Assembly: GCA_021776525.1 (NCBI GenBank)
Contig: JAJFFT010000005.1
Span: forward strand, 124,001 to 188,000
DNA: 64,000 nt
Reading direction: 5' to 3'
From: Robiginitomaculum sp.
GTDB lineage: Bacteria > Pseudomonadota > Alphaproteobacteria > Caulobacterales > Maricaulaceae
The notes under the pieces were generated by a model, which saw only the letters and a program-made list of their open reading frames with translations, was not told where the DNA came from and made no database searches. A program made the position numbers and the translations under genes. This document shows, one piece after another, positions 21,733-38,982 of this stretch; the stretch's first letter is position 1; each line of letters begins with the position of its first letter.

Positions 21733-22844
21733 TAGAGAAGCGTCGCCCGGCGGTTTTCGTGACCAGCAATGTTTATCGCGCACCGGCCTGGGGCAATAAT
21801 CACCCGCTGGCCATTCCGCGCCAAAGCGCCATGTTGGATCTGTGCGAAATGCTGGGCTGGATGCCAGAAAGTGACCTTTGCCAAACCGGCATGGCCACCG
21901 ACGACACCTTGTTACGCTTTCATCAAACAGACTATCTGAACGCCTTTAAGGCTGCCTGTGATGCAGGAAAAGTCAGTCGCGATGTGCGCGAAAAATATCA
22001 CATAGGCACGATGGAAAACCCGATTTTCTCCGGCCTTTTCGAGCGTGCGGCGACAACTGTTGGTGGCTCAATTCTGGCGGCGCAATGCGCGCTGTCGGGC
22101 CAGATTGCTTATCACCCATCAGGCGGTACCCACCATGGACGGCCAGACAGGGCCAGCGGATTTTGTTATTTCAACGACCCGGTGTTTGCACTTTTGACGC
22201 TGCTGGATGGCGGTGCGGACAAGGTGCTTTATGTTGATCTGGACGCCCACCATGGAGACGGTGTGCAGGCCGCTTTTGATGCTGACCCGCGTGTTATGAC
22301 AATCTCGATACACGAGGAAAATCGTTGGCCGCACTCCGGTGCGCTGGATGATCGGGGCGGCCAGGGTAACGCCCGCAATATCCCGGTCCCCAAAGGTTTT
22401 AACGATGCGGAACTGGCCTTTGTAATGGATGAAGCCGTATTGTCACTGGCGGCGCAGTTTAACCCTGATGCGGTGGTGATCACTTGCGGTGCCGATGCGC
22501 TGGCCGGTGATCCACTTTCTGGTATGGCGCTGACTAATGGTGCGTTATGGCGCGCCGTTGAACAGCTTGTCTGTATCGGCCCGGCGGCTGTGGTGCTGGG
22601 CGGCGGCGGGTATAACCCATGGACGGTGGCACGGTGCTGGTCGGGCCTGTGGGGCGTGCTCAGCGGGCGTGAATTCCCTGATGTATTGCCGGAGGCGGCA
22701 CAAGAGATGATGCGTACGCTGGATTGTGACCTGATTGATGAAGACGAGGTCGAGCCACACTGGACCAGCACCTTGCGTGATAAACCGGGGCGGGGTGATG
22801 TGCGCGAAGCGGTAAAGAATAGTGCCGCAACTCTCAGGCGTTGA
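21729..22844 (+). CDS. Histone deacetylase/AcuC-family amidohydrolase
   Basis: This is a 371-residue zinc-dependent deacetylase-like enzyme of the arginase/HDAC fold. Visible motifs are [23 protein letters not shown] (active-site histidine pair), [13 protein letters not shown] (zinc ligands), [13 protein letters not shown] and [12 protein letters not shown]. The bacterial members deacetylate small molecules such as acetylpolyamines or proteins such as acetyl-CoA synthetase; the substrate here is unknown. It overlaps the prfB stop by ATGA, which suggests coupled translation, and ends 5 bases from the convergent OmpA gene. Confidence 0.88.
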
Positions 22845-25140: not shown

Positions 25141-26205
25141 CTATTTCACGGCAGTGTGTATGGCCGATGCGAAATCTGCCGGTGCGGCGCTCAACATGCC
25201 GGCATTGGCAGTATCAAAAAACGCGGTGATATGGGCATCAATATTTTTAACCGGCACCCGGCGCAAAGACGCCTCCAAATCATATATAATGCGCGGCGGT
25301 GTGACAAAAAAATCTCCGGTGATCAACACTTCGCGCAGGCGCTCATTGCGTGCGCCTTCCAGGCGGACAAAGGCGTTTACCGTGCCGCCCATGCCGGTAT
25401 GACTGCCCATCAATACACCGGCTTCGCGGGCCGGGTCATCAATTTCGGCGACAAAGTCGTCTGTGCCTATTTCTTCAGTATAAAGAGTTTGTGCGCGGCG
25501 TTCTTCGGCCTCGGTCACCTCACCCCATTTGGCTGCCAGCCCTAGTCGCTCTGTAAAGCCGCTAACCAGAGCCTGTTCCAACGTGTCCATGTCGGGCGTT
25601 TGATCGCCCAGCAAGGCCCGTAAACAGGTCACCCGATCGGCGGCACTGTCCAGGTTTTTACGCTCGACTTTGGCCTTGGCGACGTTGAGCGCCGCAAACA
25701 TGGTCTTTGGATCAAGATCGACCAGAACCGTGCCCTGATAAATCACCGTGTCGCCATCAAAAAAGCCGCCGGTGCCGGAGATTTTTCGCCCGCCCACTTC
25801 AATGTCATTGCGGGGCCGGTAATTGGCCTCAATGCCCAGTGTGGACAGGCCAGCCGCAGCGGCTTCGCAAATCATCATGGCGGTGTTGCCTAGGTCCCCA
25901 AGGTTGAGGGATTTGCGCCGCATGACCAGCGCCCAGCCCAATTGTCCCTGGTCCAGATAAATGGCCCCGCCGCCGGTGATGCGGCGCCCGATCTCGATAC
26001 CCCGTGCCGCACACTCGGTTTTATGGATTTCCTGGCTCAAAGCCTGATGTCGCCCCAACAGGGCCACAGGCTTGAAATGGATGAAGCGGATAGTGTCAGG
26101 GATTTCACCGCACCTGTGTGCGTCGATCATCGCCTGATCAAAGGCGATGTTCTCCCGGCCAGTACGCAGTCCCGTATCAATAATGCGAAAAGGTGGGTGG
26201 GACAT
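25141..26205 (-). CDS. slpl(AB): Lipoate:protein ligase of the sHdr type, sLpl(AB)
   Basis: This 354-residue ligase of the LplA/BirA fold activates lipoate or octanoate with ATP and transfers it to a lysine of the carrier protein. Visible are RRITGGGAIYLDQGQLGWALV (lipoyl-AMP binding), the catalytic lysine K141 in VGGRKISGTGG, and an extra C-terminal domain like that of fused LplA-LplB enzymes (FVRLEGARNERLREVLITGDF). Work on sulfur oxidisers showed that sHdr loci carry a dedicated ligase that modifies the lipoate-binding protein LbpA. This gene is last in a minus-strand operon with two radical SAM lipoyl synthases and lipT, so that role is inferred. It starts 3 bases after the preceding stop. 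Confidence 0.88.
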   Translation of the reverse strand: MSHPPFRIIDTGLRTGRENIAFDQAMIDAHRCGEIPDTIRFIHFKPVALLGRHQALSQEIHKTECAARGIEIGRRITGGGAIYLDQGQLGWALVMRRKSLNLGDLGNTAMMICEAAAAGLSTLGIEANYRPRNDIEVGGRKISGTGGFFDGDTVIYQGTVLVDLDPKTMFAALNVAKAKVERKNLDSAADRVTCLRALLGDQTPDMDTLEQALVSGFTERLGLAAKWGEVTEAEERRAQTLYTEEIGTDDFVAEIDDPAREAGVLMGSHTGMGGTVNAFVRLEGARNERLREVLITGDFFVTPPRIIYDLEASLRRVPVKNIDAHITAFFDTANAGMLSAAPADFASAIHTAVK

Positions 26206-26208
26206 GGC

Positions 26209-27501
26209 TTAATAATCTTCTAAGTCATCGCCTTCTTCGTAAGTTTCGCCGGGTTTTTGCATATCCAGTTGCGAGCGTATGCGGCGAATATCAACATCTG
26301 CCGGGGCAAAGGGATAAGAGGCGATGTCGGATGGTGGACTGTCGCCGTAAGGACGGTCACAGGCCGATATATCTTCGGCAAATTTTCCGGGACAACCCGA
26401 TGTGCGAAATGCGGTGCCCGCATCAATAACGCTATCCAGTTCGGCTTGCGCCAGACCAAAGTCAATCACCCGGCCTTCGCTGTCAAACTTCATTTTTTCA
26501 ACACGAATGCCATAATAATCAATCATATAACGTGCCAGTTGCACCCGGCGCCATTGATCGCGGGGGGTGGCCGGCAAATGGTCCATCAATGATCCTTGTT
26601 CGGGATAGAAACAGAACATGTGGCTGTGGCCACCAAGGTCGACAAGCTGTTGCACCAGTTCCAGAATTTCAAATTCGGTTTCGCCCATGCCGACAATAAT
26701 GTGCGCGCCAAACTTTTGTGGTCCAAATATATCGCGGGCATCCATCAGGATTTCCCAATATTTCTTCCAGCTGTGGGGCGATTGCACGCCTTTGCCACGG
26801 GTGCGGTCAAAAATTTCTGGCGTGGCGGCATCCAGCGCCACGGTGAAAATGTCGGACCCCATATCGCGCAAGGTTTGTACGTCTGAACGCGCCATGGTGG
26901 TGGGATTAGAGAGGATCGAGATCGGAATGGCATCCGGGTCCACATGGTCGGTCCAGGTTTTCAGGACACTGACCGTATCTTCGTCGGAACGCGGATGCGT
27001 GATCATCGAGATGCACATGCGGTGAAACGGACTGTTTTCCGGGTCTTGGCCGACAATCTGGGCGATTTTGCTCATCGGCACGCTGGGCCAGTCCACACGA
27101 ATGAAATTGCGATCCGCGTAATCCCGGTCGGCTTCGCGGTGGCGGGCCAGACCACAATAGGCGCAATTGGCGCGGCAGCCTTCGGGATAGGTGAGCAGGA
27201 TGTTGAGGCATCGCGTGCATTCGCAACGGTGCATTTTGCCGGGCATGATCCCCAGAGTTAGTGCCGCAGCAGTGGACAGCTGGACATATTCCGGCGAGGT
27301 CATATTGGGCGTTTGGATATTGTTATTGGGCAGATACAAGCCTTCGGGGCGGGCGTCTGCGGCTTTCACCCGACCACCATTACGGGCCTCTTTGGGGGGC
27401 TTTGCCGGGGCGCGTGGTTCCATCACGTCAAAGGGGTTAAAATCCAATCCGTCGGGTCCATTTTCACCGGGCCCTGCGTTTTCTGGTTTCAAACAGCTCA
27501 T
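26209..27501 (-). CDS. lipS2: Radical SAM lipoyl synthase, probably LipS2
   Basis: This 430-residue radical SAM protein has a CX3CX2C cluster motif (C109, C113, C116 in CRANCAYC), and an extra cysteine cluster just before it (C93, C95, C98 in CECTRC), a place where lipoyl synthases bind the auxiliary iron-sulfur cluster that donates sulfur. AHIIVGMGETEFE and EQGSLMDHLPATP are within the barrel. It belongs with the two-protein LipS1/LipS2 system that inserts the two sulfurs into octanoyl-LbpA, distinct from the classical single LipA. Which of the two radical SAM genes is LipS1 or LipS2 is assigned from gene order and is not certain. AAGGAG precedes the start. Confidence 0.75.
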   Translation of the reverse strand: MSCLKPENAGPGENGPDGLDFNPFDVMEPRAPAKPPKEARNGGRVKAADARPEGLYLPNNNIQTPNMTSPEYVQLSTAAALTLGIMPGKMHRCECTRCLNILLTYPEGCRANCAYCGLARHREADRDYADRNFIRVDWPSVPMSKIAQIVGQDPENSPFHRMCISMITHPRSDEDTVSVLKTWTDHVDPDAIPISILSNPTTMARSDVQTLRDMGSDIFTVALDAATPEIFDRTRGKGVQSPHSWKKYWEILMDARDIFGPQKFGAHIIVGMGETEFEILELVQQLVDLGGHSHMFCFYPEQGSLMDHLPATPRDQWRRVQLARYMIDYYGIRVEKMKFDSEGRVIDFGLAQAELDSVIDAGTAFRTSGCPGKFAEDISACDRPYGDSPPSDIASYPFAPADVDIRRIRSQLDMQKPGETYEEGDDLEDY

Positions 27502-27534
27502 AAATCGCGACTCCTTAAGGTCAACGGCATGGTA

Positions 27535-28602
27535 TCATGCCGCCCAATATTCTGAATAGGCAATCCAACTGGCCCGCAGTTGATCCGGGGTTGGGGTGTT
27601 TTCGTTGGCATAAGTACTTAAAATTTCATGGCGGCGTTTCAGTGCACGTGCCAAAGATGCACCAAAAAGATCGTCCAAATCCTGTTGGTAATTCTCTGGT
27701 GCGTCCAGATCGCTGTGTAACCAGTCTGCGGCGGCTTCGCCGGCCAAACGGCCCGACATAACGGCGGCATTGATCCCGGCCCCGGTAATCGGGTTGGTCA
27801 GACCAGCCGCATCTCCGGCCAGTAAAACCAGGGTATTATTCAAAAACCCATAGGGCTTTAACATGCCGCCCGCGGGTATGGCTCCGCCAGTGTGGTTTAA
27901 AACTCTCGCACCTATACGGCCCTCTTGGATCAGGCGTTCATGCAGGGAAGACAGAATGTCTTTTAAGCGCGCCTTGTCGCTGGCCACCACCCCTAGGCCC
28001 AGATTGGCCGTTTCCCCCTTGGGAAAAAGCCAGGCATAGCCACCACGTATATCTGCATTCAAAAATATATCTGTAGATTCAAAGGGTTTGAGCAAGGGGA
28101 CGCTGATCTGGCGGGTTTCCAAAATATCCTGATTAGTCGAGCCAATGGCTTTTCCGGCCAGTGAGTGGGGGCCATCGGCACCAATGATCACTTTGGGAGC
28201 AATGCGGCTTTTATCAGCCAAAATAACAACGCCATCCTTGGTGATCTGGCGGACATTGACGCCATAGTGACATATAGCACCGGCCTTGCGCGCCTCTTGT
28301 GCCAATTTGGCGTCAAAATCGGCACGGTCGATCATGCGCCCCGGAAAGTCCGCCATAAGATCGGGCGTACTATTCTCGACCATTGTCAGCATAGAAGAGA
28401 TGTTTTGCACATGGCAGTCGCGCAAGTTATTAACCATGTTTTCGATTAACGCGGGCACAAATTCAGCGCACTGAACGGGCGTGCCGGGTGTTTTTTTTCG
28501 TTCAACGGTTAAGGTTGAGAAATTATTTTGCGCGAGCGCAATGGCCGCGCATGAGCCCGCAGGCCCAAGGCCAAGAACCAGTATGTCCGGGGCTGTGTTC
28601 AT
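27535..28602 (-). CDS. lipT: LipT, FAD-dependent oxidoreductase of geranylgeranyl-reductase type
   Basis: The 355-residue flavoprotein starts with a Rossmann motif ILVLGLGPAGSCAAIAL, a VERKKTPGTPVQCAEF substrate-side segment, IIGADGPHSLAG, and the second FAD motif LVLLAGDAAGLTNPITGAGI. This resembles geranylgeranyl reductase-like oxidoreductases. In sHdr loci such a gene (LipT) is conserved between the lipS genes and is thought to supply electrons or handle redox during lipoate assembly; its exact reaction is not known. The ATG at 28602 shares one base with the TGA of lipS1 (TGATG), so the two are translationally coupled. Confidence 0.82.
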   Translation of the reverse strand: MNTAPDILVLGLGPAGSCAAIALAQNNFSTLTVERKKTPGTPVQCAEFVPALIENMVNNLRDCHVQNISSMLTMVENSTPDLMADFPGRMIDRADFDAKLAQEARKAGAICHYGVNVRQITKDGVVILADKSRIAPKVIIGADGPHSLAGKAIGSTNQDILETRQISVPLLKPFESTDIFLNADIRGGYAWLFPKGETANLGLGVVASDKARLKDILSSLHERLIQEGRIGARVLNHTGGAIPAGGMLKPYGFLNNTLVLLAGDAAGLTNPITGAGINAAVMSGRLAGEAAADWLHSDLDAPENYQQDLDDLFGASLARALKRRHEILSTYANENTPTPDQLRASWIAYSEYWAA

Positions 28603-29639
28603 CAAGCGGCGCAGGTTGCCGACACTTGGGCAGATTCGCTGCCGCCAATTTTAATGGCGCAGCAAGCATGTTCTTGATGGTAGGGGCGGCCAATGGCGTT
28701 TGATACCGCCACGGCTCCATCGGCGGGAAAGGCAATGCCATCAAGGCCAGCCATCACAGCGTAGGAATCGGTGATGCGTTTGTGCATGCCAGGCGGACGG
28801 GCACAGCCCAACAAGACCTGACGGTCTGGAAGGCGCTGGCGTGCTTCCAGGAAGATGCGCCCTACATCAGAGGTGGAGGGCGTTTTGAATGTGCCGGGTT
28901 TGGCGTAAAACGGCATGATCACCACCAGCACCAATGCGTGCACGTCATAACGGCTGACAATATCCAGGGCGTTTTCTTCGCCCAATATTTCACCGTAATG
29001 CAGGCCCACGACAATATGCGGGGTAACTTTCAGCTTGGTCGAGGTCAGCGCAGCCAGTGTCGCTTCGAAATCATCCACCGGGCGGTCGAGTTTATAGACC
29101 TGCTCTATTGTTTCTTGCGCGCCGATGACGTCCATCATGGCCGAATCGACACCAGCCGATTCCATACGCTTGGCGGCGGCTTCATCCAGAAGGGCGGTAT
29201 GAATGGCAATTTGCAGATGGGGGAAGTCCGTTTTCAGCTTCTCAACGACAGGAAGGTAGCGTTCATATTTGATTTCATTGCGTTTATTCGATCCGCCTGA
29301 GAGCAAAAATCCTTGCAGGTTTTGCAGTACAACCATGTCACGCACCTGGCGGTCCAGATGCTCGGGTTTAACTGCTGGGATCATCGGTTCCAGAATTTTT
29401 TTCTGGCAATGATCACAATTCAGCGCGCAGCCACCAGCGGTGATGGAGAAGGCGGGGAATGAATTTTTCCCACAGCCGGAAAGCTCGGACGATTCGTACT
29501 CTTTAAAGGTGGGCGTGGAAAACCGAATGGGTCGGGCCAGCGACTGCGCGGCGTTATCTTCAAATGAGCGAATGAGGTTCGCGTCCAGCTCAGCATCTTC
29601 CAGCGCTTCGATTTGCAATATGCTTTGTTGCCAATTCAT
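28602..29639 (-). CDS. lipS1: Radical SAM lipoyl synthase, probably LipS1
   Basis: This 345-residue radical SAM enzyme has a CX3CX2C motif C71-ALN-C75-DH-C78 after the strand FSITAGG, a GFLLSGGSNKRNEI segment and the core repeats of a TIM-type barrel (TPHIVVGLHYGEILGEE). Cysteines near the C-terminus (LLGCARPPG, HACCAIK) and C56 upstream may bind a second cluster. It is the first gene of the minus-strand lipoate operon. The partner radical SAM gene lies two genes on. GAGGG precedes the ATG. The LipS1/LipS2 naming relies on order. Confidence 0.75.
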   Translation of the reverse strand: MNWQQSILQIEALEDAELDANLIRSFEDNAAQSLARPIRFSTPTFKEYESSELSGCGKNSFPAFSITAGGCALNCDHCQKKILEPMIPAVKPEHLDRQVRDMVVLQNLQGFLLSGGSNKRNEIKYERYLPVVEKLKTDFPHLQIAIHTALLDEAAAKRMESAGVDSAMMDVIGAQETIEQVYKLDRPVDDFEATLAALTSTKLKVTPHIVVGLHYGEILGEENALDIVSRYDVHALVLVVIMPFYAKPGTFKTPSTSDVGRIFLEARQRLPDRQVLLGCARPPGMHKRITDSYAVMAGLDGIAFPADGAVAVSNAIGRPYHQEHACCAIKIGGSESAQVSATCAA

Positions 29640-29659
29640 ATGTTTCCCTCTTCACCGCT

Positions 29660-29684
29660 ATTCAATATGCGAATTTTCTAATAT
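29660..29684. promoter_or_regulatory. AT-rich motif in the divergent lipS1/gat promoter region
   Basis: ATTCA (29660-29664), part of ATTC-N7-GAAT, is followed by TTCTAATAT (29676-29684). The same two blocks recur upstream of the dsrE-shdr operon at 30518-30539. sHdr loci are controlled by an ArsR-type repressor in a studied relative, so this may be an operator; the spacing differs between copies (11 and 8 bases). Confidence 0.35.
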
Positions 29685-29731
29685 ACAGTCTGACAGCATG
29701 TTCCCATCATCGCAAGAGGTTTGCTTTTTTC

Positions 29732-30427
29732 ATGAAATATCTATCGGTCATACAGCATACGTCTGCCGAATACCTGGGTTTGATGGAGGATCATCTGGAA
29801 GGGCGGCGCATCCGTTTTAATTATGCGCGTCCTTTTACTGAAAAAGGTAAGCCACCAGAGATCAGCACCATCGGTGATGGTCTGGTGTTGCTGGGTGGCG
29901 GCCCGTGGGGCAGTGCCGGGGGGCGCGATGTGCCAACATTGGCGGACGAGGTGACCTTGACTCGCGCGGCATTGATGACCGGTCTGCCGATTTTGGCCTT
30001 TGGTCTGGGGGCGCAAATTCTCAGCTTGGCCGCAGATGGCAGCGTTGATGCAACGCCGCTGGAATTTAAGGCTGGCCATGCACGTCGTGTTGAGGCGGGG
30101 GCCTTGAATGGCTATCTGCCTGAACGCTTTCCCCATGTCACCTATATGCGTGATCGTCCGGTGCCGCCCGGTTATGCCAAAGTGTTGGCCGAAGATGAAG
30201 AGGGCCATGCGGCGCTGTTTCAAATCGGCGATAATGCCTTTGGCTTTGCCGGGCATCCGGGCTTCAAACTGGCCATGGCCGAAGATCTGATCATGGAATT
30301 TGAAGAAGGCCCGGTGGGCGAAACCAAAGACGCCTTTGCCAACCTTCGCGGTATGAAAACCCAGATCGAAGATGCGCTCGTACCAATTATGACCGGGCTG
30401 ATCCAACTGACCGGCTGGATGCGCTGA
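29732..30427 (+). CDS. Class I glutamine-amidotransferase-like protein lacking the catalytic cysteine
   Basis: The 231-residue protein has the GATase1 fold pattern (LVLLGGGPWG, PILAFGLGAQILS, FGFAGHPGFK), but the nucleophile position of the GxCxGxQ-type elbow is glycine (G91 in AFGLGAQ), the HPE motif reads HPG (H175, G177) and the protein has no cysteine at all. It therefore cannot hydrolyse glutamine by the usual route. The frame is intact with a good start and AGAGG upstream, so it is not a decaying pseudogene. It is divergent from lipS1 and lies just before the dsrE-shdr operon, so a non-catalytic role in lipoate or sulfur handling is inferred. Confidence 0.75.
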   Translation: MKYLSVIQHTSAEYLGLMEDHLEGRRIRFNYARPFTEKGKPPEISTIGDGLVLLGGGPWGSAGGRDVPTLADEVTLTRAALMTGLPILAFGLGAQILSLAADGSVDATPLEFKAGHARRVEAGALNGYLPERFPHVTYMRDRPVPPGYAKVLAEDEEGHAALFQIGDNAFGFAGHPGFKLAMAEDLIMEFEEGPVGETKDAFANLRGMKTQIEDALVPIMTGLIQLTGWMR

Positions 30428-30517
30428 GCGGTATCGCTTATAGTTGCCGGGCTTTTTTCTGCAATTCTATTGGCTAAATTTTCACCCCACACCAAAAAGA
30501 TGTATGTTTGATCTTGC

Positions 30518-30539
30518 ATTCATTAGCACATTCTAATAT
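30518..30539. promoter_or_regulatory. Motif upstream of dsrE-shdr operon
   Basis: ATTCA (30518-30522) and TTCTAATAT (30531-30539) repeat the blocks found at 29660-29684. An inverted repeat ATTAG-N6-CTAAT (30522-30537) overlaps. It lies about 100 bases upstream of the dsrE start in a 209-base gap otherwise without a gene. Confidence 0.35.
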
Positions 30540-30636
30540 TCTGCTGAAAACGAGGCAAAGTGCCGCAGGGGAGAAGTCCCAAGAGCACCGCCCAAAACAG
30601 GCCACGCAAAGCGGGCCGCCGGAGGGAGAGAAGACA

Positions 30637-31014
30637 ATGGCTGATAAGCTGATGATCATCATGGCTAATACCGATCCACGCAATGGCGAGGAATTGGGCG
30701 CACCAATATTTCAGGCCACAGTGGCCGCTGCCATGGAATATGAGGTCGAGGTGATTTGCACTGCAACGGCTGGCCGGTTGATGAAAAAGGGCGAAGCCGA
30801 GAAGATGTTCGTTAAGGAAGGCTCTCCCAAAAGCGTCTATTCCTTTATTCAGGATGCCCATGAAGCTGGGGTCACATTCTATTGCTGCTCACCTAATCTC
30901 GATTTGTTCGACATGACGACGGACGATTTAATCCCGGAATGCAAAGGTATTGTTGGCGGGGCCTACCTCATTGAAGAGGTGATGGAAGAAGATATCAAGG
31001 TCCTGACGTATTAA
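30637..31014 (+). CDS. DsrE-family sulfurtransferase (DsrE3 type)
   Basis: This small cytoplasmic DsrE/DsrF-like protein of 125 residues carries persulfide sulfur. It begins MADKLMIIMANTDP and has cysteines at 41, 83, 84 and 102; C83-C84 in FYCCSPNLDLF is where DsrE3 proteins place their conserved active cysteine. In sHdr loci a DsrE3-type protein passes sulfane sulfur, together with TusA, to the sHdr-LbpA system. It is the first gene of the shdr operon, 24 bases before shdrC1. I start it at the ATG with GGAGGGAGAG upstream; a longer ORF from 30508 is leader. Confidence 0.88.
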   Translation: MADKLMIIMANTDPRNGEELGAPIFQATVAAAMEYEVEVICTATAGRLMKKGEAEKMFVKEGSPKSVYSFIQDAHEAGVTFYCCSPNLDLFDMTTDDLIPECKGIVGGAYLIEEVMEEDIKVLTY

Positions 31015-31038
31015 GCCTGTTCATTAGAGGAAGACACC

Positions 31039-31788
31039 ATGTCTCATTCTGCCAGCTCCCGTGTTCAGGAATTTATCGGCGATCCGTTTGCCGAAAAATC
31101 GCTATTGCCACAGGAAAAACTGGAAGAGATTTTTACCGATATCCAGTCTGACCTGCGTTTCGATCACGAGCTGAACGGCTGTTTGAATTGCGGGATTTGT
31201 ACCGCCACGTGCCCGGCCGCGCACTATTACGATTTTTCTCCGCGCGAGATTGTCCAGTTGTTGTGGACCGAAAACCTGGATGGCATTTATGATGCCATGC
31301 AGGAAAAAATCTGGGCCTGTGCACAATGTTATACCTGTGCGGCGCGCTGCCCGTTCGGCAATTCACCGGGCGGCTTGATCATGATTTTGCGCGAAACGGC
31401 CATCAAGCATGGCATGGAAAGCGCCAAAAATGTGCTGCGCCCATTTTCGCGGGTGATGTTGAAGCTGATCTCAACAGGGAACCAGCTTTCCCCGGATATG
31501 ATCAACCCCGAACACTTTGCCGACTGGGGCCCTAATATTTCAAAGGTTGATGCGCCGCTGAAACTGTTGCGCAAGGCCATCCCGATGCCAACCCTGAACA
31601 CCACGGAAACGGCCTGGGAGGTGAACTTAAAAACCTCTGTCGAATTGTACACCATCTGGGAAGAAACCGGGGTTTTGGACCAATTGGAAACTGTGGACGA
31701 AAATCTCTTCGATGTGATCATCGATATCGTCGATGAGAAGAAAGAAGACTGGGAAGACTGGAAAGACGAACAGGACGATGACGACTGA
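31039..31788 (+). CDS. shdrC1: sHdrC1, iron-sulfur subunit of sulfur-oxidising heterodisulfide reductase-like complex
   Basis: This 249-residue HdrC-like protein carries two [4Fe-4S] ferredoxin motifs: C48-LN-C51-GI-C54-TAT-C58-P and C94-AQ-C97-YT-C100-AAR-C104-P. It would pass electrons between sHdrA and sHdrB1 in the cytoplasm. An acidic C-terminal tail (KKEDWEDWKDEQDDDD) is unusual and may be an interaction surface. An AGAGGAAG ribosome binding site precedes it. In bacteria this complex oxidises sulfane sulfur to sulfite and is distinct from the methanogen enzyme that reduces heterodisulfides. Confidence 0.92.
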   Translation: MSHSASSRVQEFIGDPFAEKSLLPQEKLEEIFTDIQSDLRFDHELNGCLNCGICTATCPAAHYYDFSPREIVQLLWTENLDGIYDAMQEKIWACAQCYTCAARCPFGNSPGGLIMILRETAIKHGMESAKNVLRPFSRVMLKLISTGNQLSPDMINPEHFADWGPNISKVDAPLKLLRKAIPMPTLNTTETAWEVNLKTSVELYTIWEETGVLDQLETVDENLFDVIIDIVDEKKEDWEDWKDEQDDDD

Positions 31789-31814
31789 TCGTCGAACCCG
31801 ATAAGGAGACCATA

Positions 31815-33176
31815 ATGGCCACCAAAGACACAAATAATGGCGAACGCTTTACCGGACACGGGTCCGAATGGCGCGATTCCGATCTTTCCAAGGAAGACGC
31901 GTTGGTCGCCACGGCATGGATCGAGCAAAGGATCAACAAACGCTCTATGTTGACCAATAAGGATCGCGTCCATGATATTCGTGATGTGATGTGGCAGCTG
32001 GAAAAAGACGGCGAGATCAAGGTTCACCGTATCCACGACGAGCACGAGCCGGTGATGGCCAAAACGCTCTATGGCTGGGACAAAAAAATCCCTACAAACC
32101 AGCTCTGGCACCATAAATCTTGCGGTCAATGCGGCAATATTCCGGGCTATCCAGCGTCTTTGCTGTGGCTGATGAACATGATGGACATCCGCTATCTGGA
32201 TGAAACTGATCAAACCTCATGTACGGCATGGAATTACCATGGTTCTGGTATTGGCAATATCGAAAGCCTAGCCGCCGTATTCTTGCGTAATTTTCACCAG
32301 GCCTATGTTTCGGCCAAGGCCGAAGGCAAACCGGAGGGGTATTATTACCCGCTGGTGCATTGCGGCACGTCGTTTGGCAATTACAAAGAAGTGCGTGAAT
32401 ATTTGCTGCTTTCTTCTGAACTGCGTGAGCGGGTTAAGAAAATCCTCGGCAAATTGGACCGCCTGGTGGATGGTAAATTGCTGATCCCCGAAGAAGTGGT
32501 GCATTATTCAGAATGGACCCATGTGATGCGTCACCGCATTAAAGAGCATCAGGTGATCGATTGCTCTAACATTCGCGCCACCATTCACCCGGCTTGCCAT
32601 GTTTACAAAATGGTGCCGCAAGACGTCATTTATGATGATGATGTGCTGAACGGCGACCGTGTGGCGGTGTCCACCGGCATTATCGAAGCACTGGGCGCGC
32701 AGGCGATTGATTATTCTACATGGTATGATTGCTGCGGTTTTGGTTTTCGCCACATTATTTCCGAACGTGAATTTACCCGTTCCTTCTCGATCGACCGCAA
32801 AATCAAAGTGGCCGTCGAAGAGGCCAATTCTGATGTGATGATCGGCCACGATACTGGCTGCATCACGACGCTGGATAAAAACCAGTGGATTGGTCAGGCC
32901 GAAGGCAAGAATTATGACCTGCCAGTGATTGCCGATGTGCAATTTGCGGCACTGGTTTGCGGCGCGCACCCTTACAAGGTTGTGCAATCGCATTGGCATG
33001 CGTCTTCTACCGAGAAGCTGTTTGAAAAACTAGGCATCGACTGGCGTGCCAAAAAAGCCGAGTTCGAGGACTATCTGAAACAGATCGAGAGCGGCGGCGA
33101 GCAGGAAAATCTTTACGACCCACGTCGGCGTATTACCGGCGGCCCTGGCTATAAGAAACAAGAGCAGATCACATGA
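31815..33176 (+). CDS. shdrB1: sHdrB1, CCG-domain subunit of sHdr
   Basis: This 453-residue HdrB-like protein has one clear CCG-type domain: HPACHVYKM, then WYDCCGFGFRH, then HDTGC. Such domains bind unusual noncubane iron-sulfur clusters at the thiol-active site. Extra cysteines lie N-terminally in HHKSCGQCGNIPG and ETDQTSC, and in VHCGTSFG. It is longer than typical HdrB, as expected for sHdrB1. TAAGGAG precedes its ATG; its stop overlaps the shdrA start (ATGA), which indicates coupled translation. Confidence 0.92.
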   Translation: MATKDTNNGERFTGHGSEWRDSDLSKEDALVATAWIEQRINKRSMLTNKDRVHDIRDVMWQLEKDGEIKVHRIHDEHEPVMAKTLYGWDKKIPTNQLWHHKSCGQCGNIPGYPASLLWLMNMMDIRYLDETDQTSCTAWNYHGSGIGNIESLAAVFLRNFHQAYVSAKAEGKPEGYYYPLVHCGTSFGNYKEVREYLLLSSELRERVKKILGKLDRLVDGKLLIPEEVVHYSEWTHVMRHRIKEHQVIDCSNIRATIHPACHVYKMVPQDVIYDDDVLNGDRVAVSTGIIEALGAQAIDYSTWYDCCGFGFRHIISEREFTRSFSIDRKIKVAVEEANSDVMIGHDTGCITTLDKNQWIGQAEGKNYDLPVIADVQFAALVCGAHPYKVVQSHWHASSTEKLFEKLGIDWRAKKAEFEDYLKQIESGGEQENLYDPRRRITGGPGYKKQEQIT

Positions 33177-34225
33177 GCACTAAACCGATTTTGATTGTTG
33201 GCGGTGGCCCGGCCGGGCTAGCCGCTGCGCATTCTCTGGCCAGCGTTGGCCAGAAATCCATCATTGTTGAAAAAGAAGATGCCTTGGGTGGCACGCCGAT
33301 CCTTTCCGGCTATGCCAAACTGGTCCCCAGCGGCGAATGGGCCAAGGATGCCATTGGTGGCATGGTGGACCGGGTGACCGGCAACAAGCTGATCACCGTG
33401 AAAACCGGCACGACTGTGAAAGAGTTTTCGGGCAAGCCCGGCAATTTCTCGGTGAAATATAGCGAAGGCAAGGGCAATAGCGTCTCTTCTGCTGTTTTGT
33501 GTACCGGCTTTACGCATTTTGACAGCATCAATAAGCCCGAATGGGGTTTTGGTACGTATCCTGATGTGGTGACCACCACGCAGGTTGAACAGATGATTTC
33601 ATCAGGGCAGGGCGTGCGTCGCCCATCCAATGGTGAAAAACCAAAACGCGTGGCGATATTGCTTTGTGTTGGCTCTCGTGATCGCCAAATCGGCCGCGAA
33701 TGGTGCTCGAAAATCTGTTGTACGGTGTCGGCCAATCTGGCGATGGAAATTCGCGAAGAACTGCCTGATTGCCACGTCTATGTTTATTATATGGACATCC
33801 GTACTTTCGGCCTTCTGGAGACCAAATATTACTGGAAAAGTCAGGAAGAATTCAAAGTCAAATACATCAAGGCGCGGATCGCCGAGGTGACGTCTGATGG
33901 CGACAAGGTGATTGTCAAAGGCGAAGACACATTGGTCAAACGCCCGATCACCATACCGTTCGACATGGTTGTGCACGCCGTGGGCATGGACCCCAATGTG
34001 GATAATATGCTGTTGTCCTCGATCTTTGACGTCAATTTGGAGCCAAATGGCTTTATTGATCGCCAAAACTCCTATGGTGGCATGGGGGCAAGCTCACGCG
34101 AGGGCGTATTTGTCGCCGGGTCTGCAACGGGCCCTGAAACCATCGATGATTCCATTGCCCAGGGTCAGGCCGCAGCGTTTAGCGCGCTGGCCATCGCCAA
34201 TGGTCAGATGGCGGCGGCGGAGTAA
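33173..34225 (+). CDS. shdrA: sHdrA, FAD-binding subunit of sHdr
   Basis: The 350-residue flavoprotein has the FAD motif GGGPAGLAAA at residues 10-19, the cluster-binding cysteines C165, C178, C182 and C183 in LLCVGSRDRQIGREWCSKICC, and a closing FAD segment FVAGSATGPETIDDS. It is shorter than methanogen HdrA and lacks its extra ferredoxin and insertion domains, which is the sHdr pattern. It is the proposed electron entry or bifurcation hub, with NAD as likely acceptor in sulfur oxidation (inferred). It follows shdrB1 with a 4-base overlap. Confidence 0.93.
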   Translation: MSTKPILIVGGGPAGLAAAHSLASVGQKSIIVEKEDALGGTPILSGYAKLVPSGEWAKDAIGGMVDRVTGNKLITVKTGTTVKEFSGKPGNFSVKYSEGKGNSVSSAVLCTGFTHFDSINKPEWGFGTYPDVVTTTQVEQMISSGQGVRRPSNGEKPKRVAILLCVGSRDRQIGREWCSKICCTVSANLAMEIREELPDCHVYVYYMDIRTFGLLETKYYWKSQEEFKVKYIKARIAEVTSDGDKVIVKGEDTLVKRPITIPFDMVVHAVGMDPNVDNMLLSSIFDVNLEPNGFIDRQNSYGGMGASSREGVFVAGSATGPETIDDSIAQGQAAAFSALAIANGQMAAAE

Positions 34226-34231
34226 TCAGCA

Positions 34232-35110
34232 GTGCTTTCTTTTTTGAACAAATCAAAAAAGGATGCCTCAGGGGCAAGCCAAGAGGCGCGCCCTGCGCTG
34301 GAGCTGTCCGGACCAATCCTGCAACAGGCCTTGCAACAGGCGATTGCCGGATGCGAGCCGATGGGTGGGATTGAGCGTTATATTGATGCGTTGAAGTTGA
34401 AATCCACGTTGTTTCAAGACGCCTTGCTGAATGGCGGCGTAAAGAACCTCACACCAGAAGCTTTTGGCGGGTTGTGTGTGTTCATGTCGACCGTGCGTCG
34501 CCGTGTGGCACCTTATCTTGAACCCGAAACCTTTACAGCCGTCAGGGGGGCGCTGGCGACCCTTTTGGACGGTCGCGAAGATACATCGAATGCCAATGAA
34601 CGGCTGGCCATGTTTTGTGAGGCCTTTCCTCAGGATAAAAAGCACCGTTGGGTACGCGATCTGGCGGCAGAAGTGCTGCATAATGTTGACCCCGAGCGCT
34701 ATCCCCTGATGACCCGCTGGATGTGGGATAAAAAGGCCAATACAGGCGTTATCCGAGAGATCTGGTTCGATGACCAGATCGACCATATGACGCTGGATGT
34801 TCCGGACACCTATCTGACCTTCATTACCCTGCGCGAAGAACTCAGCCAGTACTTGACCGAAAATGGTATTTTTCGCGATGTGCTGACCTATATCGACCTT
34901 TTATGCGCCCAGATTTATGCCGATTATATCTGCGCTCAGGGTGGGTCGTATTTGCGAACCGACTTTGCCTCGCCGCAAGACCCTATGGAATACACGCGTC
35001 GGCTGTTGGGGCTGGACGGGATTAAGGCAAAAACCAACAAAACCCGGCTGAAATCCATCGACGGCACAGCGTTTGTGCTGGATGACGCTAACCTCCTGCA
35101 ACAGAACTGA
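34232..35110 (+). CDS. Conserved sHdr-locus hypothetical protein
   Basis: This 292-residue soluble protein has no catalytic motif I recognise. It is mostly helical by eye and has three cysteines (LCVFMS, MFCEAF, LLCAQIY, YICAQ region). A gene of this size is a fixed member of shdr operons between shdrA and shdrC2. It begins at GTG 34232 six bases after the shdrA stop. A scaffold or assembly role for the sHdr complex would be a guess. Confidence 0.7.
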   Translation: MLSFLNKSKKDASGASQEARPALELSGPILQQALQQAIAGCEPMGGIERYIDALKLKSTLFQDALLNGGVKNLTPEAFGGLCVFMSTVRRRVAPYLEPETFTAVRGALATLLDGREDTSNANERLAMFCEAFPQDKKHRWVRDLAAEVLHNVDPERYPLMTRWMWDKKANTGVIREIWFDDQIDHMTLDVPDTYLTFITLREELSQYLTENGIFRDVLTYIDLLCAQIYADYICAQGGSYLRTDFASPQDPMEYTRRLLGLDGIKAKTNKTRLKSIDGTAFVLDDANLLQQN

Positions 35111-35118
35111 GCAATCAT

Positions 35119-35859
35119 ATGGCCATTCATGAAAAACATCTGATCCGCCCGGAAAACCTGAAAACCCATGATAATCTCGTGATTGATGGGGTGGATGTTT
35201 CCGGGCATTGGAGCACGTTTATCGAAACCCGGGTGGTCACCGATTATAACGAGCAATTGCAAGAAGAAATCGCCGCGCTGCCAGGCGGTGAATATATTCA
35301 CCGGTGTTGGCAATGCGGCTCGTGCACTAATGCCTGCACTGTCAATGCTATCAACCCCGAATTTAATCCGCGATACTGGATTTACCTGATCCGTATGGGT
35401 ATGGAATCTGAACTTCTGCGCGATAAAGAAATTATCTGGCAGTGCGTTTCATGTAACAAATGCACCTATGCGTGTCCCCGCGATGTGGTGCCCGAAGGGG
35501 TGATGAAGGCCACGGCCCACTGGCTGGAAATGAAAGAGCATACCGCCCCGTCTAATTCGACAATTTTCGACGAGGAATTCACCCGCCAAGTGGTGCAGAC
35601 TGGAAAAATCGAAGATGGCCGTATCTTGATGAATTTTCTCAAAAATTCCAAACAGCCCTTATTCCAGGACTGGTTGGTCGAAATGGTCAAAAAAATGATC
35701 ACCAATCTGCCGGTCAAATATCTGATGGGCATGGGATGGGCCACGGTGTTCCAGCCCAAGACCAAACGCTGGGGCAAAGCCCGCGCCGCCATTGAAGAAC
35801 ACATTGCCGAGGAAAAGGCCGCCGAGCGCGCCGCCCTTGGTCTTGATGCCGCCGAATAA
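35119..35859 (+). CDS. shdrC2: sHdrC2, second iron-sulfur subunit
   Basis: A 246-residue HdrC paralogue with two [4Fe-4S] motifs: C63-WQ-C66-GS-C69-TNA-C73 and C109-VS-C112-NK-C115-TYA-C119-P. After the ferredoxin core, it has a helical C-terminus rich in charged residues. It should pair with sHdrB2, encoded 12 bases downstream. Sequence similarity to sHdrC1 is limited to the cluster-binding part, so the two are not recent duplicates. Confidence 0.92.
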   Translation: MAIHEKHLIRPENLKTHDNLVIDGVDVSGHWSTFIETRVVTDYNEQLQEEIAALPGGEYIHRCWQCGSCTNACTVNAINPEFNPRYWIYLIRMGMESELLRDKEIIWQCVSCNKCTYACPRDVVPEGVMKATAHWLEMKEHTAPSNSTIFDEEFTRQVVQTGKIEDGRILMNFLKNSKQPLFQDWLVEMVKKMITNLPVKYLMGMGWATVFQPKTKRWGKARAAIEEHIAEEKAAERAALGLDAAE

Positions 35860-35871
35860 GAGGAAAATAAA

Positions 35872-36807
35872 ATGCCCGAACGTAAAGAAAAATACAAAAA
35901 AGTTGCCTATTATCACGGCTGCGCGCTGGAGGGGACGGCCCAACCGTACAACACCTCGACCCGCGCGATTGCCAAAAAGCTGGACCTGGAACTGGTTGAT
36001 ATTGAAAACTGGAACTGTTGCGGTGCCATGGAGGTCAAAAACGTTGACCCGGAAATTCAGACCTATCTGTCTTCACGGGTGATGTCGCTGGCTCATAACG
36101 GCATGGGCCAGGATGTGGTTATGGCCCCGTGTAATGGCTGCTATCATAATCTCAAAAAAGCTGAATACGATATTGCCAATAAGGAAAAATCTCGCGAAGT
36201 CGTTGAGAAAATTTCTGCAAAGGCAGAGCACCCAACCTATGAGGCCGGGCAGGTGGAAACCATCCACGCGCTTGACTGGATTAAGTTTGGCTATGGCGAA
36301 GATGAGTTAAAAGAAAAGATCAAAGGTGGCCTTAAGGGGCTGAAAGTCGCCAACTATTACGGTTGCATGTATACGCGCCCGCGCCATATTTTCCCCGAAA
36401 AAGATCAGGGCGGCGACAGCGAAAGCACATCAAAACCGCACTATATGGACGATCTTTTGGCCATAGCCGGTGCCGAGAATGTTGAGTTCCCCCTCAAAAC
36501 CGCGTGCTGCGGCGGGGCGCATACCCTGTCAGACAGTGACACCTCGACCAAGCTGGTTTTAAACATTCTCAAAGCCGCCGAGGCCGCCGGAGCCGATGTT
36601 ATCGCGACCGAGTGCCCGACCTGTCACTCAGGTCTGGAAATGCACCAGATCCGCGCCTTGAAACGCATGTCGGCCGAGACAAATGTCAAGATTGTATATT
36701 TTACGCAATTGCTGGGTCTGGCTTTGGGCCTCAGCGCACGTAAGGTCGGCATTCATGAAAACGTGTCTAATGCCATACCCATGCTGAAAGCCAAGAAAAT
36801 CGCATGA
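35872..36807 (+). CDS. shdrB2: sHdrB2, two-CCG-domain subunit
   Basis: This 311-residue HdrB homologue has two complete CCG domains: C17 (YYHGCALE), C49-C50-G (NWNCCGAME), C87 and C90 (CNGC); then YYGCMYTRP, TACCGGAHT and CPTCHSG. That equals the classical HdrB active-site set with two noncubane clusters. It is the likely site where the lipoate-bound sulfur is worked on. The final ATGA overlaps the next gene. Confidence 0.93.
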   Translation: MPERKEKYKKVAYYHGCALEGTAQPYNTSTRAIAKKLDLELVDIENWNCCGAMEVKNVDPEIQTYLSSRVMSLAHNGMGQDVVMAPCNGCYHNLKKAEYDIANKEKSREVVEKISAKAEHPTYEAGQVETIHALDWIKFGYGEDELKEKIKGGLKGLKVANYYGCMYTRPRHIFPEKDQGGDSESTSKPHYMDDLLAIAGAENVEFPLKTACCGGAHTLSDSDTSTKLVLNILKAAEAAGADVIATECPTCHSGLEMHQIRALKRMSAETNVKIVYFTQLLGLALGLSARKVGIHENVSNAIPMLKAKKIA

Positions 36808-37220
36808 GAAGTGTTGCCGATATTGGAAAGGCGCTGGACGCGCCTTTACCGGAAAGCGACCCGGCCGCTGCGGCGACGTTTTTGCTGCATTCGGGCGAAG
36901 AAATATTGGAACACTGGCTGCATGCGCACGATAAGGCGCCAACGGACGAGCAAAAAGAAGGCTTTCGCATTCTGGCGCTGCATCGTCAGGGTGCCAAAGG
37001 CGAGCCAAGCTTTAATGCCTGCCGGGAAACGGCCCGCGAACTGGTATATCACTATAACCTGATCACGCTGGACCCGGCCAACAAAGATATGCCGCAACGC
37101 CTCTCGATGATGCGTTTGGTGGCCAATCATTTGTATCTGTTTGTCAGCGGTAAAATGGAAGTTGACGGACTGGGAGAGTTTTGTTGCTCTTCCAAGCCGA
37201 TCCGGTTAAATTCGGCTTAA
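36804..37220 (+). CDS. Small hypothetical protein between shdrB2 and lbpA
   Basis: This 138-residue protein overlaps shdrB2 by four bases and precedes lbpA by 25 bases, so it belongs to the same transcript. It is helical and charged, with SFNACRETARELVYHYN in the middle and a CC pair near its end (EFCCSSKPIRL). I do not recognise a named domain. Translational coupling to shdrB2 suggests a stoichiometric partner or assembly factor. Similar small genes occur in some shdr loci. Confidence 0.6.
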   Translation: MRSVADIGKALDAPLPESDPAAAATFLLHSGEEILEHWLHAHDKAPTDEQKEGFRILALHRQGAKGEPSFNACRETARELVYHYNLITLDPANKDMPQRLSMMRLVANHLYLFVSGKMEVDGLGEFCCSSKPIRLNSA

Positions 37221-37245
37221 ATCACAAGACAAAAGGATTCTCACC

Positions 37246-37683
37246 ATGCCAGACGTTCGCGGTTGTCACTTCCCCGAAGACCTTCTCTATGATGTGGAAA
37301 ACCACATTTGGGTAAAAGAAGAGGGTGACGGCAAAATTAGATTGGGCATGACCGCTGTGGCCACTGCTATGGCCGGTCAACTGGTGGCCTTTACCCCCAA
37401 AAAGGTTGGCCGCAAGGTGAAAGCCGGCCGTTCGTGTGCGACGGTTGAAAGTGGCAAATGGGTTGGCCCGGCAAAGTCACAGGCTGGCGGCGAGGTTCTC
37501 GCCTCTAACGAAGCTTTGGTGGCAAATCCAAGCCTTGCCAATGATGACCCTTACGCTAACTGGATGGTGGAGATTGCCGCCGAGGACTGGGACAGCATTA
37601 AAGGTAATTATACCTCTGGCGCCGATGTCGCCGCGCCCTATGAAGCCAAAATGGAAGCCGACGGGTTTGCAGGCTGCGAGTAA
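37246..37683 (+). CDS. lbpA: LbpA, lipoate-binding protein of the sHdr pathway (GcvH-like)
   Basis: This 145-residue GcvH-fold protein carries lipoate on K71 within CATVESGKWVGPAKS, in place of the ESVKA motif of glycine-cleavage H protein. No gcvT or gcvP is nearby. LbpA shuttles sulfur intermediates to and from the sHdr complex on the dithiolane arm. C64 and C7 are additional cysteines. Its dedicated lipoylation genes are at 25-29.6 kb. AAAGGA precedes the ATG; a strong terminator follows, so it closes the operon. Confidence 0.92.
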   Translation: MPDVRGCHFPEDLLYDVENHIWVKEEGDGKIRLGMTAVATAMAGQLVAFTPKKVGRKVKAGRSCATVESGKWVGPAKSQAGGEVLASNEALVANPSLANDDPYANWMVEIAAEDWDSIKGNYTSGADVAAPYEAKMEADGFAGCE

Positions 37684-37708
37684 ACGCCTCAAGGGTTGAG
37701 TTTGTAAA

Positions 37709-37739
37709 AGCGCAGGGCGGAAACCCTGCGCTTTTTTTC
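37709..37739 (+). terminator. Rho-independent terminator of the shdr operon
   Basis: A 9-bp GC-rich stem AGCGCAGGG/CCCTGCGCT with a 6-base loop is followed by a T-run (37732-37738). It lies 25 bases after the lbpA stop. Confidence 0.95.
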
Positions 37740-37809
37740 TTGTGTCATATCATTGCCAAAGATCATTATTATATTCATTGATAGGAATGATGTGTTTGAG
37801 GGTATGAAG

Positions 37810-38982
37810 ATGAACAAACGGATTTGTGTTCTGGGCGGAGACGGGTTTTGCGGGTGGCCAACAGCACTGCATTTGTCGAAAATGGGTCACGAAGTGACGA
37901 TTGTAGACAATTTATCGCGTCGCAACATTGATAACGAGCTGGAGGTTGGCTCTTTAACGCCAATCGCACACATGGGGGTTCGCCTGGCTGCGTGGGAAGA
38001 GGTTTCGGGCCGTAAAATCTCTTTTCAAAATTTTAATATTGCCAAGGATTACGACCGGTTATTGTCGTTGATCAGCGATTTTAAACCCGACGCTGTAATC
38101 CATTTCGCCGAACAACGCGCCGCACCGTATTCGATGAAATCCTCGTATCACAAACGCTATACTGTTGATAATAATTTGAACGCCACAAACAATATTCTGG
38201 CCGCCATTGTCGAGGCCGAGGCACAAGGTACGCATGTTATACATTTAGGAACCATGGGTGTTTACGGCTACGGCACCGCAGGTATGAAAATTCCCGAAGG
38301 CTATCTGCAAATCAAAGTTGAGACAGACGAGGGCGAAAACGTCACCCAAGAGATTCTCTACCCGGCCAATCCCGGCAGTATCTATCATTTGACCAAAACC
38401 CAGGACCAGCTGTTGTTTGCCTATTACAATAAAAACGACAGTATCAAGGTCACCGACCTGCACCAGGGTATTGTCTGGGGGACACAAACCGAAGAAACCC
38501 GTTTGGACGAACGTCTGATCAACCGGTTTGATTATGATGGGGATTATGGCACGGTGCTGAACCGGTTTTTGATGCAGGCAGCAGTGGGACACCCGCTGAC
38601 CGTGCATGGTACGGGCGGCCAGACGCGGGCCTTTATTAACATCCAGGATACCGTGAAGTGTATCCTTTTGGCCGTGGAAAACCCGCCAAAGACGGGCGAG
38701 CGGGTGCACATCATGAACCAAATGACTGAAACGCATCGGGTGCGGGATCTGGCTCAGTTGATTGCCGGTTTAACGGGCGCAAAAATCGCCAATGTTGATA
38801 ACCCTAGAAATGAAGCCGCCGAGAACGAACTGCATGTTAAAAACGATAATCTGCTCAGCCTGGGGTTAAACCCAATCACACTGGAAGATGGCTTGTTGCA
38901 GGAAATCGCAGAAATTGCGCGCAAATATGCGGATCGTTGCGATCAGGATAAAATCCCGTGCGTCTCCACGTGGACGAAATAG
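37810..38982 (+). CDS. sqdB: UDP-sulfoquinovose synthase
   Basis: This 390-residue short-chain dehydrogenase-type sugar enzyme closely follows SQD1/SqdB: the NAD motif VLGGDGFCGWPTALHL, IVDNLSRR, HFAEQRAAPYSM, the catalytic T and YxxxK context HLGTMGVYGYG and IYHLTKTQDQ, and QGIVWGTQTEET. SqdB makes UDP-sulfoquinovose from UDP-glucose and sulfite, the first step in sulfolipid SQDG synthesis. The gene begins 70 bases after the shdr terminator. GAGGG suits ATG 37810 or 37804. No SQDG glycosyltransferase (sqdX/sqdD) is visible in the window, so the end product must be completed elsewhere. Confidence 0.9.
   Translation: MNKRICVLGGDGFCGWPTALHLSKMGHEVTIVDNLSRRNIDNELEVGSLTPIAHMGVRLAAWEEVSGRKISFQNFNIAKDYDRLLSLISDFKPDAVIHFAEQRAAPYSMKSSYHKRYTVDNNLNATNNILAAIVEAEAQGTHVIHLGTMGVYGYGTAGMKIPEGYLQIKVETDEGENVTQEILYPANPGSIYHLTKTQDQLLFAYYNKNDSIKVTDLHQGIVWGTQTEETRLDERLINRFDYDGDYGTVLNRFLMQAAVGHPLTVHGTGGQTRAFINIQDTVKCILLAVENPPKTGERVHIMNQMTETHRVRDLAQLIAGLTGAKIANVDNPRNEAAENELHVKNDNLLSLGLNPITLEDGLLQEIAEIARKYADRCDQDKIPCVSTWTK

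Follow-up and report, generated by a model that had tools for sequence, protein, structure and literature searches.

A type I sHdr system of sulfur oxidation has been defined by the presence of shdrC1B1AHC2B2 in one syntenic cluster (PMC11582611), and the gene set lipS1, lipT, lipS2 and slplAB has been described as the LipS1/LipS2-sLpl(AB) lipoate assembly pathway (PMC10332631); lipX and sHdrI have both been described for Hyphomicrobium denitrificans (PMC10332631, PMC11582611). We analyzed a window of 64,000 nucleotides (contig 5, positions 124,001-188,000) from a marine Robiginitomaculum-like alphaproteobacterium, the assembly of which comprises 2.96 Mb in seven contigs and is 94.7% complete, and found that positions 25141-37683 of the window are a type I sHdr locus (dsrE3-shdrC1B1AHC2B2I-lbpA) lying back to back with lipS1-lipT-lipS2-slplAB. 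The locus is a further member of the sHdr-LbpA systems and ordinary in kind; it extends a thoroughly studied route of sulfur oxidation to marine Robiginitomaculum-like bacteria. The new part of the finding is that, by sequence comparison, a predicted enzyme of the histone deacetylase (HDAC) family is a repeated and unreported neighbor of the sHdr cluster in many sulfur oxidizers.

The original prediction, made from the DNA letters of the window, had recognized a complete sHdr-LbpA locus with its own lipoate genes, and this was borne out. All of the genes that it named were confirmed by the open reading frame list and family scans to be intact reading frames with the coordinates and strands given in Table 1, slplAB, lipS2, lipT and lipS1 being on the minus strand and dsrE3 to lbpA on the plus strand. 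The gaps are 3, 33 and -4 bp in the minus-strand run and -4 to 26 bp from dsrE3 to lbpA on the plus strand, where lipX precedes dsrE3; such spacing, within -4 to +33 bp inside each run, indicates two operons, and the two strands' genes point away from each other across the 92 bp that separate lipS1 from lipX. The family search of the reading frames returned an LplA/B catalytic domain, LipS2, LipS1, a geranylgeranyl-reductase-type LipT, DsrE, HdrC/B/A-like proteins and a GcvH-like protein, and the gene order, spacing and families place shdrC1B1AHC2B2 in one syntenic cluster, as in type I systems. The ferredoxin and CCG cysteines of sHdrC1, sHdrB1, sHdrC2 and sHdrB2 and the radical SAM cysteines of LipS1 and LipS2 were invariant among 33-61 relatives, with the CX3CX2C motif of both LipS1 and LipS2 invariant in 33 sequences each; the lipoyl lysine of LbpA (K71 in ESGK) is also conserved across relatives. 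LbpA is 29.6% identical to the genome's own GcvH, which is encoded by a separate gene in a gcvTHP-like operon, and scored below the cut-offs of both curated GcvH models (99.7 bits, cut-off 117; 69.5 bits, cut-off 115.85), so that the grouping with GcvH against which the original prediction had cautioned was not seen.

To place the locus among its relatives, sHdrA was searched against 84,980 species genomes, which yielded 305 relatives. The first ten listed were all metagenome-assembled genomes named Robiginitomaculum sp., the closest sHdrA among the matches listed was 97% identical, and the Robiginitomaculum relatives share the gene order. The same order was found in sHdrA-bearing loci of Alpha- and Gammaproteobacteria as far as contig ends allow, and the whole locus recurs in this order in dozens of genomes of Hyphomicrobiales, Rhodospirillales, Kordiimonadaceae, Woeseiaceae, Lysobacterales and others. 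Because it recurs in so many genomes and in several orders, the arrangement is not a product of chance. In an unselected sample of 385 alphaproteobacterial genomes, sHdrB1 was present in 10 and LipS1 in 10, nine genomes being common to both. Our literature search returned no paper pairing sHdr with Robiginitomaculum.

The gene for an HDLP-type deacetylase surfaced as an unexpected partner when the genes of the window were compared with sHdr loci by tblastn. Among 33 loci (numbered with the prefix L) having at least 1.3 kb of sequence upstream of lipS1, the gene was present in 27, and in 24 it was located immediately upstream of lipS1, on the same strand and at a distance of 11-183 bp. Because L002-L004 share the arrangement of the window and their sequence ends before the expected place of the deacetylase, the informative alpha- and gammaproteobacterial loci number 30, of which 27 carry the gene and 24 have it directly upstream of lipS1. 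In L006, which is closely related to the window, it is encoded on the lip strand close to lipS2, and in L027 and L028 it lies downstream on the opposite strand. Outside this genome, the five highest-ranking matches among the 385 alphaproteobacterial genomes were 55-59% identical and were all located 96-1,228 bp from lipS1; as three of the five come from one genus, they represent about three independent cases. In a phylogenetic tree, 35 sHdr-linked deacetylases, including that of the window, fell on one side of a branch with 100% SH-aLRT support, and because the tree places the window copy among the sHdr-linked sequences, we assign it to the linked clade despite its displaced position. No paper linking this deacetylase to sHdr was found in our literature search, although papers outside its scope may do so, and the titles and abstracts of papers covering both sHdr and histone deacetylase indicated unrelated subjects.

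With respect to the possible function of the deacetylase, the solved protein that it matches best is Aquifex aeolicus HDLP (1c3r, 250 bits), over nearly the whole chain, and the residues checked, namely the zinc ligands, the His-His dyad and the class I Asp and Tyr (equivalent to H131, H132, D166, D168, H170, D173, D258 and Y297 of HDLP), were kept in 29 of 29 deacetylase sequences. In a review, HDLP is listed among the class I protein deacetylases, and bacterial lipoamidase activity is ascribed to the sirtuins CobB and SrtN (PMC8556138); judging by titles and abstracts, papers that combine delipoylation and HDAC appear to deal with sirtuins. Among 20 unlinked relatives of the deacetylase (L107-L126; 45-53% identity), an ABC-ATPase-like gene was nearby in 16 and a gene for an NMT1/THI5-type binding protein in 8, a neighborhood of ABC-transporter genes that suggests amide hydrolysis in another context. 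On the basis of the HDLP kinship, the invariant catalytic residues, the bacterial lipoamidase precedent and the context of the unlinked relatives, we propose the hydrolysis of acyl-lysine or acyl-amide bonds, and the conserved linkage makes the deacetylase a probable additional member of the lipoate module. More specifically, we tentatively raise the possibility, as yet a doubtful one, that it is an overlooked component of sHdr-LbpA/LipS1-S2 systems in proteobacteria, which would hydrolyze acyl-lysine amides on LbpA and thereby strip lipoyl, octanoyl or wrong acyl groups from it (delipoylation, deoctanoylation or proofreading), or which would alternatively free octanoate or lipoate for sLplAB. 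If this is true, a member of the class I HDAC family would serve as a lipoyl-protein "eraser", which would explain the control or proofreading of a dedicated lipoyl carrier and provide a physiological job and a testable substrate for a bacterial HDLP-type enzyme. The unlinked deacetylases also often adjoin an O-methyltransferase gene, a second unexplained neighborhood for the family.

Gene content, synteny, conserved residues and linkage were read directly from the DNA of the window and its relatives, and the reactions that follow are predicted, with the pathway chemistry taken from PMC10332631 and PMC11582611. Judging from the families, sulfane sulfur would pass via TusA, DsrE2 and DsrE3 to the sHdr complex, of which lipoylated LbpA would be an essential partner, and the product would be sulfite made in the cytoplasm. 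For the lipoylation of LbpA, sLplAB would attach octanoate and LipS1/LipS2 would insert sulfur, with LipT as the likely electron donor. The expectation of the original prediction that sulfur entry must be encoded elsewhere was confirmed by the whole-genome search for tusA, the sole copy of which was located on contig 4 (756 kb), after dsrE2 and before a fadL-type porin gene. On the 3' side of dsrE2-tusA-fadL are genes for two DASS/Na_sulph_symp transporters and a universal stress protein, followed by a three-gene molybdenum-enzyme operon of SoeABC architecture, encoding a 1003-aa molybdenum subunit of the DMSO-reductase family, a 250-aa FeS subunit and a DmsC-type anchor. The SoeABC assignment was made by operon architecture and is provisional, and sulfite is probably oxidized by this SoeABC-like enzyme. 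The most fitting interpretation of the contig 4 island is that it is one half of a single system and has become detached from the other, because orthologous dsrE2-tusA lies directly beside the deacetylase gene and lipS1 inside the sHdr locus in other genomes. The genome also has two rhodanese genes, one of which is mercaptopyruvate-sulfurtransferase-like.

Several observations weigh against the assignment of the locus to a sulfur-oxidizing sHdr-LbpA system with its own lipoate assembly. LipS1 (189 bits, cut-off 230), LipS2 (184 bits, cut-off 270), LplAB (119 bits, cut-off 550) and LplB all scored under the NCBIfam cut-offs. The LipS1 and LipS2 models are the best matches of their proteins nonetheless, and we infer that the low scores reflect models trained on other lineages, because synteny and motifs agree. 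A YeeE/SoxT-type importer was not found in the genome in a search with a positive control, nor was SoxY, the absence of which is weak because control genomes were likewise silent for this family, and beside the locus there was no sHdrR-like regulator. The hdr-like genes might instead serve a reductive or electron-bifurcating Hdr of the methanogen type or a fumarate-reductase-like complex, and the curated models that match them are indeed those of methanogen HdrA/B/C and fumarate reductase. All of these matches, however, are far under their cut-offs; sHdrA scored 590 bits against the H. denitrificans sHdrA (6tjr) and 193 bits against the best methanogen HdrA, being thus three times closer in bits to the former, and the hdr-like genes are linked to those for DsrE3, LbpA, LipS1/S2 and sLplAB. 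The grouping with unrelated Hdr proteins that would have undermined the original prediction was therefore not observed, and we regard a role outside sulfur oxidation as extremely improbable. Another question is whether sHdr sulfite might feed the adjacent SqdB-like enzyme for sulfolipid synthesis, which would make the pathway assimilatory rather than dissimilatory. The SqdB-like protein aligns with Arabidopsis SQD1 along its full length (332 bits) but stays under the cut-off of the NF041015 model (338 bits, cut-off 575). The SQD1 family uses sulfite. Moreover, no adenylylsulfate/phosphoadenylylsulfate (APS/PAPS) reductase (CysH) was found in the genome, the sole PF01507 match over the cut-off being CysD, although CysH could be missing from the assembly given its 94.7% completeness. 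A strong terminator (37706-37735) separates lbpA from sqdB, a gene on the opposite strand intervenes between the two in L002-L004, the two are adjacent only in the closest relatives, and a predicted sulfite-oxidizing SoeABC-like enzyme is encoded beside tusA. A sulfolipid sink as a designed link was thus set aside as weak in view of the terminator, the intervening gene and the narrow conservation, and assimilatory use of the sulfite is improbable. Taken together, we consider the reading of the locus as an sHdr-LbpA-lipoate system to be very probably correct, a confidence that covers this reading only.

As for the deacetylase, its association with the lipoate genes has to be set against its absence from the available flanks of L010, L055 and L059, the bootstrap support of only 63% for the branch uniting the linked copies, and the position of the window copy, which is on the strand opposite the lip genes and 2.3 kb beyond slplAB with two unrelated genes intervening. 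In addition, relatives of 42-53% identity occur in many genomes, none of them near a lipS1 match and nearly all in genomes without lipS1. The deacetylase could accordingly be a hitch-hiker from an ancestral transferred cluster that came to lie beside the lip genes with no role in lipoate or sulfur metabolism. Such an origin would fit the tree, in which the linked copies may share one origin, the two sHdr-bearing clades without the gene (L010 and L059), and the homologues found in numerous genomes that lack lipS1, with ABC-transporter genes nearby in most of the 20 studied. It fits less well with a linkage that is kept across Alpha- and Gammaproteobacteria with tight same-strand spacing and that outlasts rearrangement in L027/L028, L006 and the window, or with the invariance of all the catalytic residues. 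We therefore consider a mere hitch-hiker rather unlikely, and an acyl-lysine hydrolase acting within the lipoate module is retained as our preferred, though tentative, reading.

The original prediction had listed the named genes of 25141-37683 correctly, and its inventory of this region and its surroundings lacked lipX, the deacetylase gene and sqdB. Family scans place LipX among the class I glutamine-amidotransferase-like proteins, and the literature labels it a putative glutamine amidotransferase (PMC10332631). However, the nucleophile position in the GxCxG elbow is Gly91 in 45 of 45 relatives, a re-cut set (n = 32) had one glutamate and no cysteine at this position, and the solved homologue 9xfs has GICLGAQ in the alignment where LipX lacks the catalytic cysteine. 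Because this cysteine is missing, the alignments exclude standard glutaminase chemistry for LipX, and the current label is probably wrong. The strictly kept residues include QH at 8-9 and some within EDHLEGR at 19-25, which suggests a binding role. For sHdrI, the predicted structure (pLDDT 88) is similar to four-helix bundles of the HEPN type (Z 13.0 and 11.6), and no function was drawn from this because the Foldseek E value was 0.24 and helical bundles reach such Z values by chance. The model of sHdrH (pLDDT 76) had weak matches only, the top five all being HhH-GPD-type DNA glycosylases with Z values of 3.9-6.1, and no function was drawn; the resemblances of sHdrI and sHdrH are both too weak to establish kinship.

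An ArsR-type gene, probably encoding sHdrR, is located close to lbpA, in most cases directly behind it, in the loci of about 20 relatives (L012, L030, L033, L040, L045 and others) and is missing near lbpA in the clade of the window. The ArsR of this genome that comes closest (contig 6, 539-540 kb; 45% identity over 94 aa) has cysteines like those of the sHdrR-like family and stands divergent to two neighbors, a probable metallo-beta-lactamase-fold gene and a small phosphatase-like reading frame; judged from the sequences and not from a family search, it looks more like a BigR-type regulator of a persulfide-detoxification unit. Just 5' of the dsrE2-tusA-soeABC-like island (contig 4, 748.7-752.7 kb) are genes for a sulfatase, a formylglycine-generating-enzyme-like protein and a sodium:sulfate symporter, a layout suggestive of a grouping of sulfate-ester use with sulfur oxidation. 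On contig 5 (281-285 kb), genes for CysD, a CysNC fusion and a CysQ-like protein adjoin dTDP-sugar genes. With no CysH found in the genome, this set may represent the activation of sulfate, perhaps to make sulfated polymers, while no route of assimilatory sulfate reduction was found.

Table 1. Features of the sHdr-LbpA-lipoate locus and its neighbors (positions in the window).
Feature	Position	Strand	Basis
HDLP-type (class I) zinc-dependent deacetylase/deacylase, predicted	21729..22844	+	PF00850; Aquifex HDLP 1c3r, 250 bits; linkage; tree; catalytic residues 29/29
sLpl(AB) lipoate/octanoate-protein ligase	25141..26205	-	PF21948, 151 bits; LplB-like C-terminus; synteny
LipS2 radical SAM lipoyl synthase subunit	26209..27501	-	NF053743, 184 bits, best match, below curated cut-off 270; C109/C113/C116 invariant
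LipT flavoprotein, TTG start, putative electron donor to LipS1/S2	27535..28605	-	geranylgeranyl-reductase-type FAD protein; synteny; role proposed in PMC10332631
LipS1 radical SAM lipoyl synthase subunit	28602..29639	-	NF053742, 189 bits, best match, below cut-off 230; C71/C75/C78 invariant
LipX, class I glutamine-amidotransferase-like, without catalytic cysteine (Gly91)	29732..30427	+	family scans, alignments; name from PMC10332631
DsrE3-type sulfur carrier	30628..31014	+	PF13686; C44, C87, C105 conserved; GGAGG ribosome site backs start
sHdrC1, two [4Fe-4S] motifs	31039..31788	+	family scans; invariant cysteines
sHdrB1, CCG-domain subunit	31815..33176	+	PF02754, HdrB models; eight invariant Cys
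sHdrA flavoprotein	33173..34225	+	solved H. denitrificans sHdrA 6tjr, 590 bits, E 1e-176
sHdrH ("hyp" gene of the original prediction)	34232..35110	+	conserved in 73 loci; alignment; position and name from PMC11582611
sHdrC2, two [4Fe-4S] motifs	35119..35859	+	family scans; invariant cysteines
sHdrB2, two complete CCG motifs	35872..36807	+	PF02754 twice; ten invariant Cys
sHdrI ("small ORF" of the original prediction), soluble protein	36804..37220	+	62 relatives; invariant C73, C127, C128; name from PMC11582611
LbpA lipoate-binding protein, lipoyl lysine K71 in ESGK	37246..37683	+	GcvH-like family, below GcvH cut-offs; K71, C7, C144 conserved
Intrinsic terminator closing the shdr-lbpA operon	37706..37735	+	12-pair stem and T run; similar hairpin after lbpA in relative locus L009
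SqdB-like UDP-sulfoquinovose synthase, neighbor outside the operon	37804..38982	+	Arabidopsis SQD1, 332 bits, full length; NF041015, 338 bits, cut-off 575

Compared with the type I sHdr-LbpA system of H. denitrificans (PMC11582611, PMC12423496), which is also an alphaproteobacterium, the locus shares the core shdrC1B1AHC2B2, sHdrI, LbpA, a DsrE3-type carrier and the linked lipS1/lipT/lipS2/slplAB/lipX genes. It differs in that soxT1A/soxT1B, sHdrR and sox genes are not alongside, tusA is found together with dsrE2 and soeABC-like genes on a different contig, lipX is separated from slplAB and stands first on the shdr strand with the lip genes divergent, and an HDLP-type deacetylase gene is nearby. 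All four genes of the LipS1/LipS2-sLpl(AB) pathway (PMC10332631) are clustered with lipX and with the gene for their target, a GcvH-like LbpA, whereas LipX of the window and its relatives lacks the amidotransferase cysteine and the linked deacetylase is absent from the main text of that paper. A further difference is that the canonical lipA elsewhere in this assembly (contig 5, 353.5 kb) has one in-frame TAA about three quarters along, with the frame intact on both sides, which is either an assembly error or a very recent decay; if the stop is real, LipS1/S2 might also have to lipoylate the 2-oxoacid dehydrogenases. CobB of Escherichia coli and SrtN of Bacillus subtilis (PMC8556138) are lipoamidases that match the proposed kind of reaction, lipoyl removal from lysine, but they are NAD-dependent sirtuins with a fold unrelated to that of the HDLP-type enzyme of the window, the activity of which is predicted. 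With HDLP of A. aeolicus, from which it is separated by a long branch in the tree, this enzyme shares nearly the whole chain, including the C-terminal tail, and all of the zinc-binding and catalytic residues.

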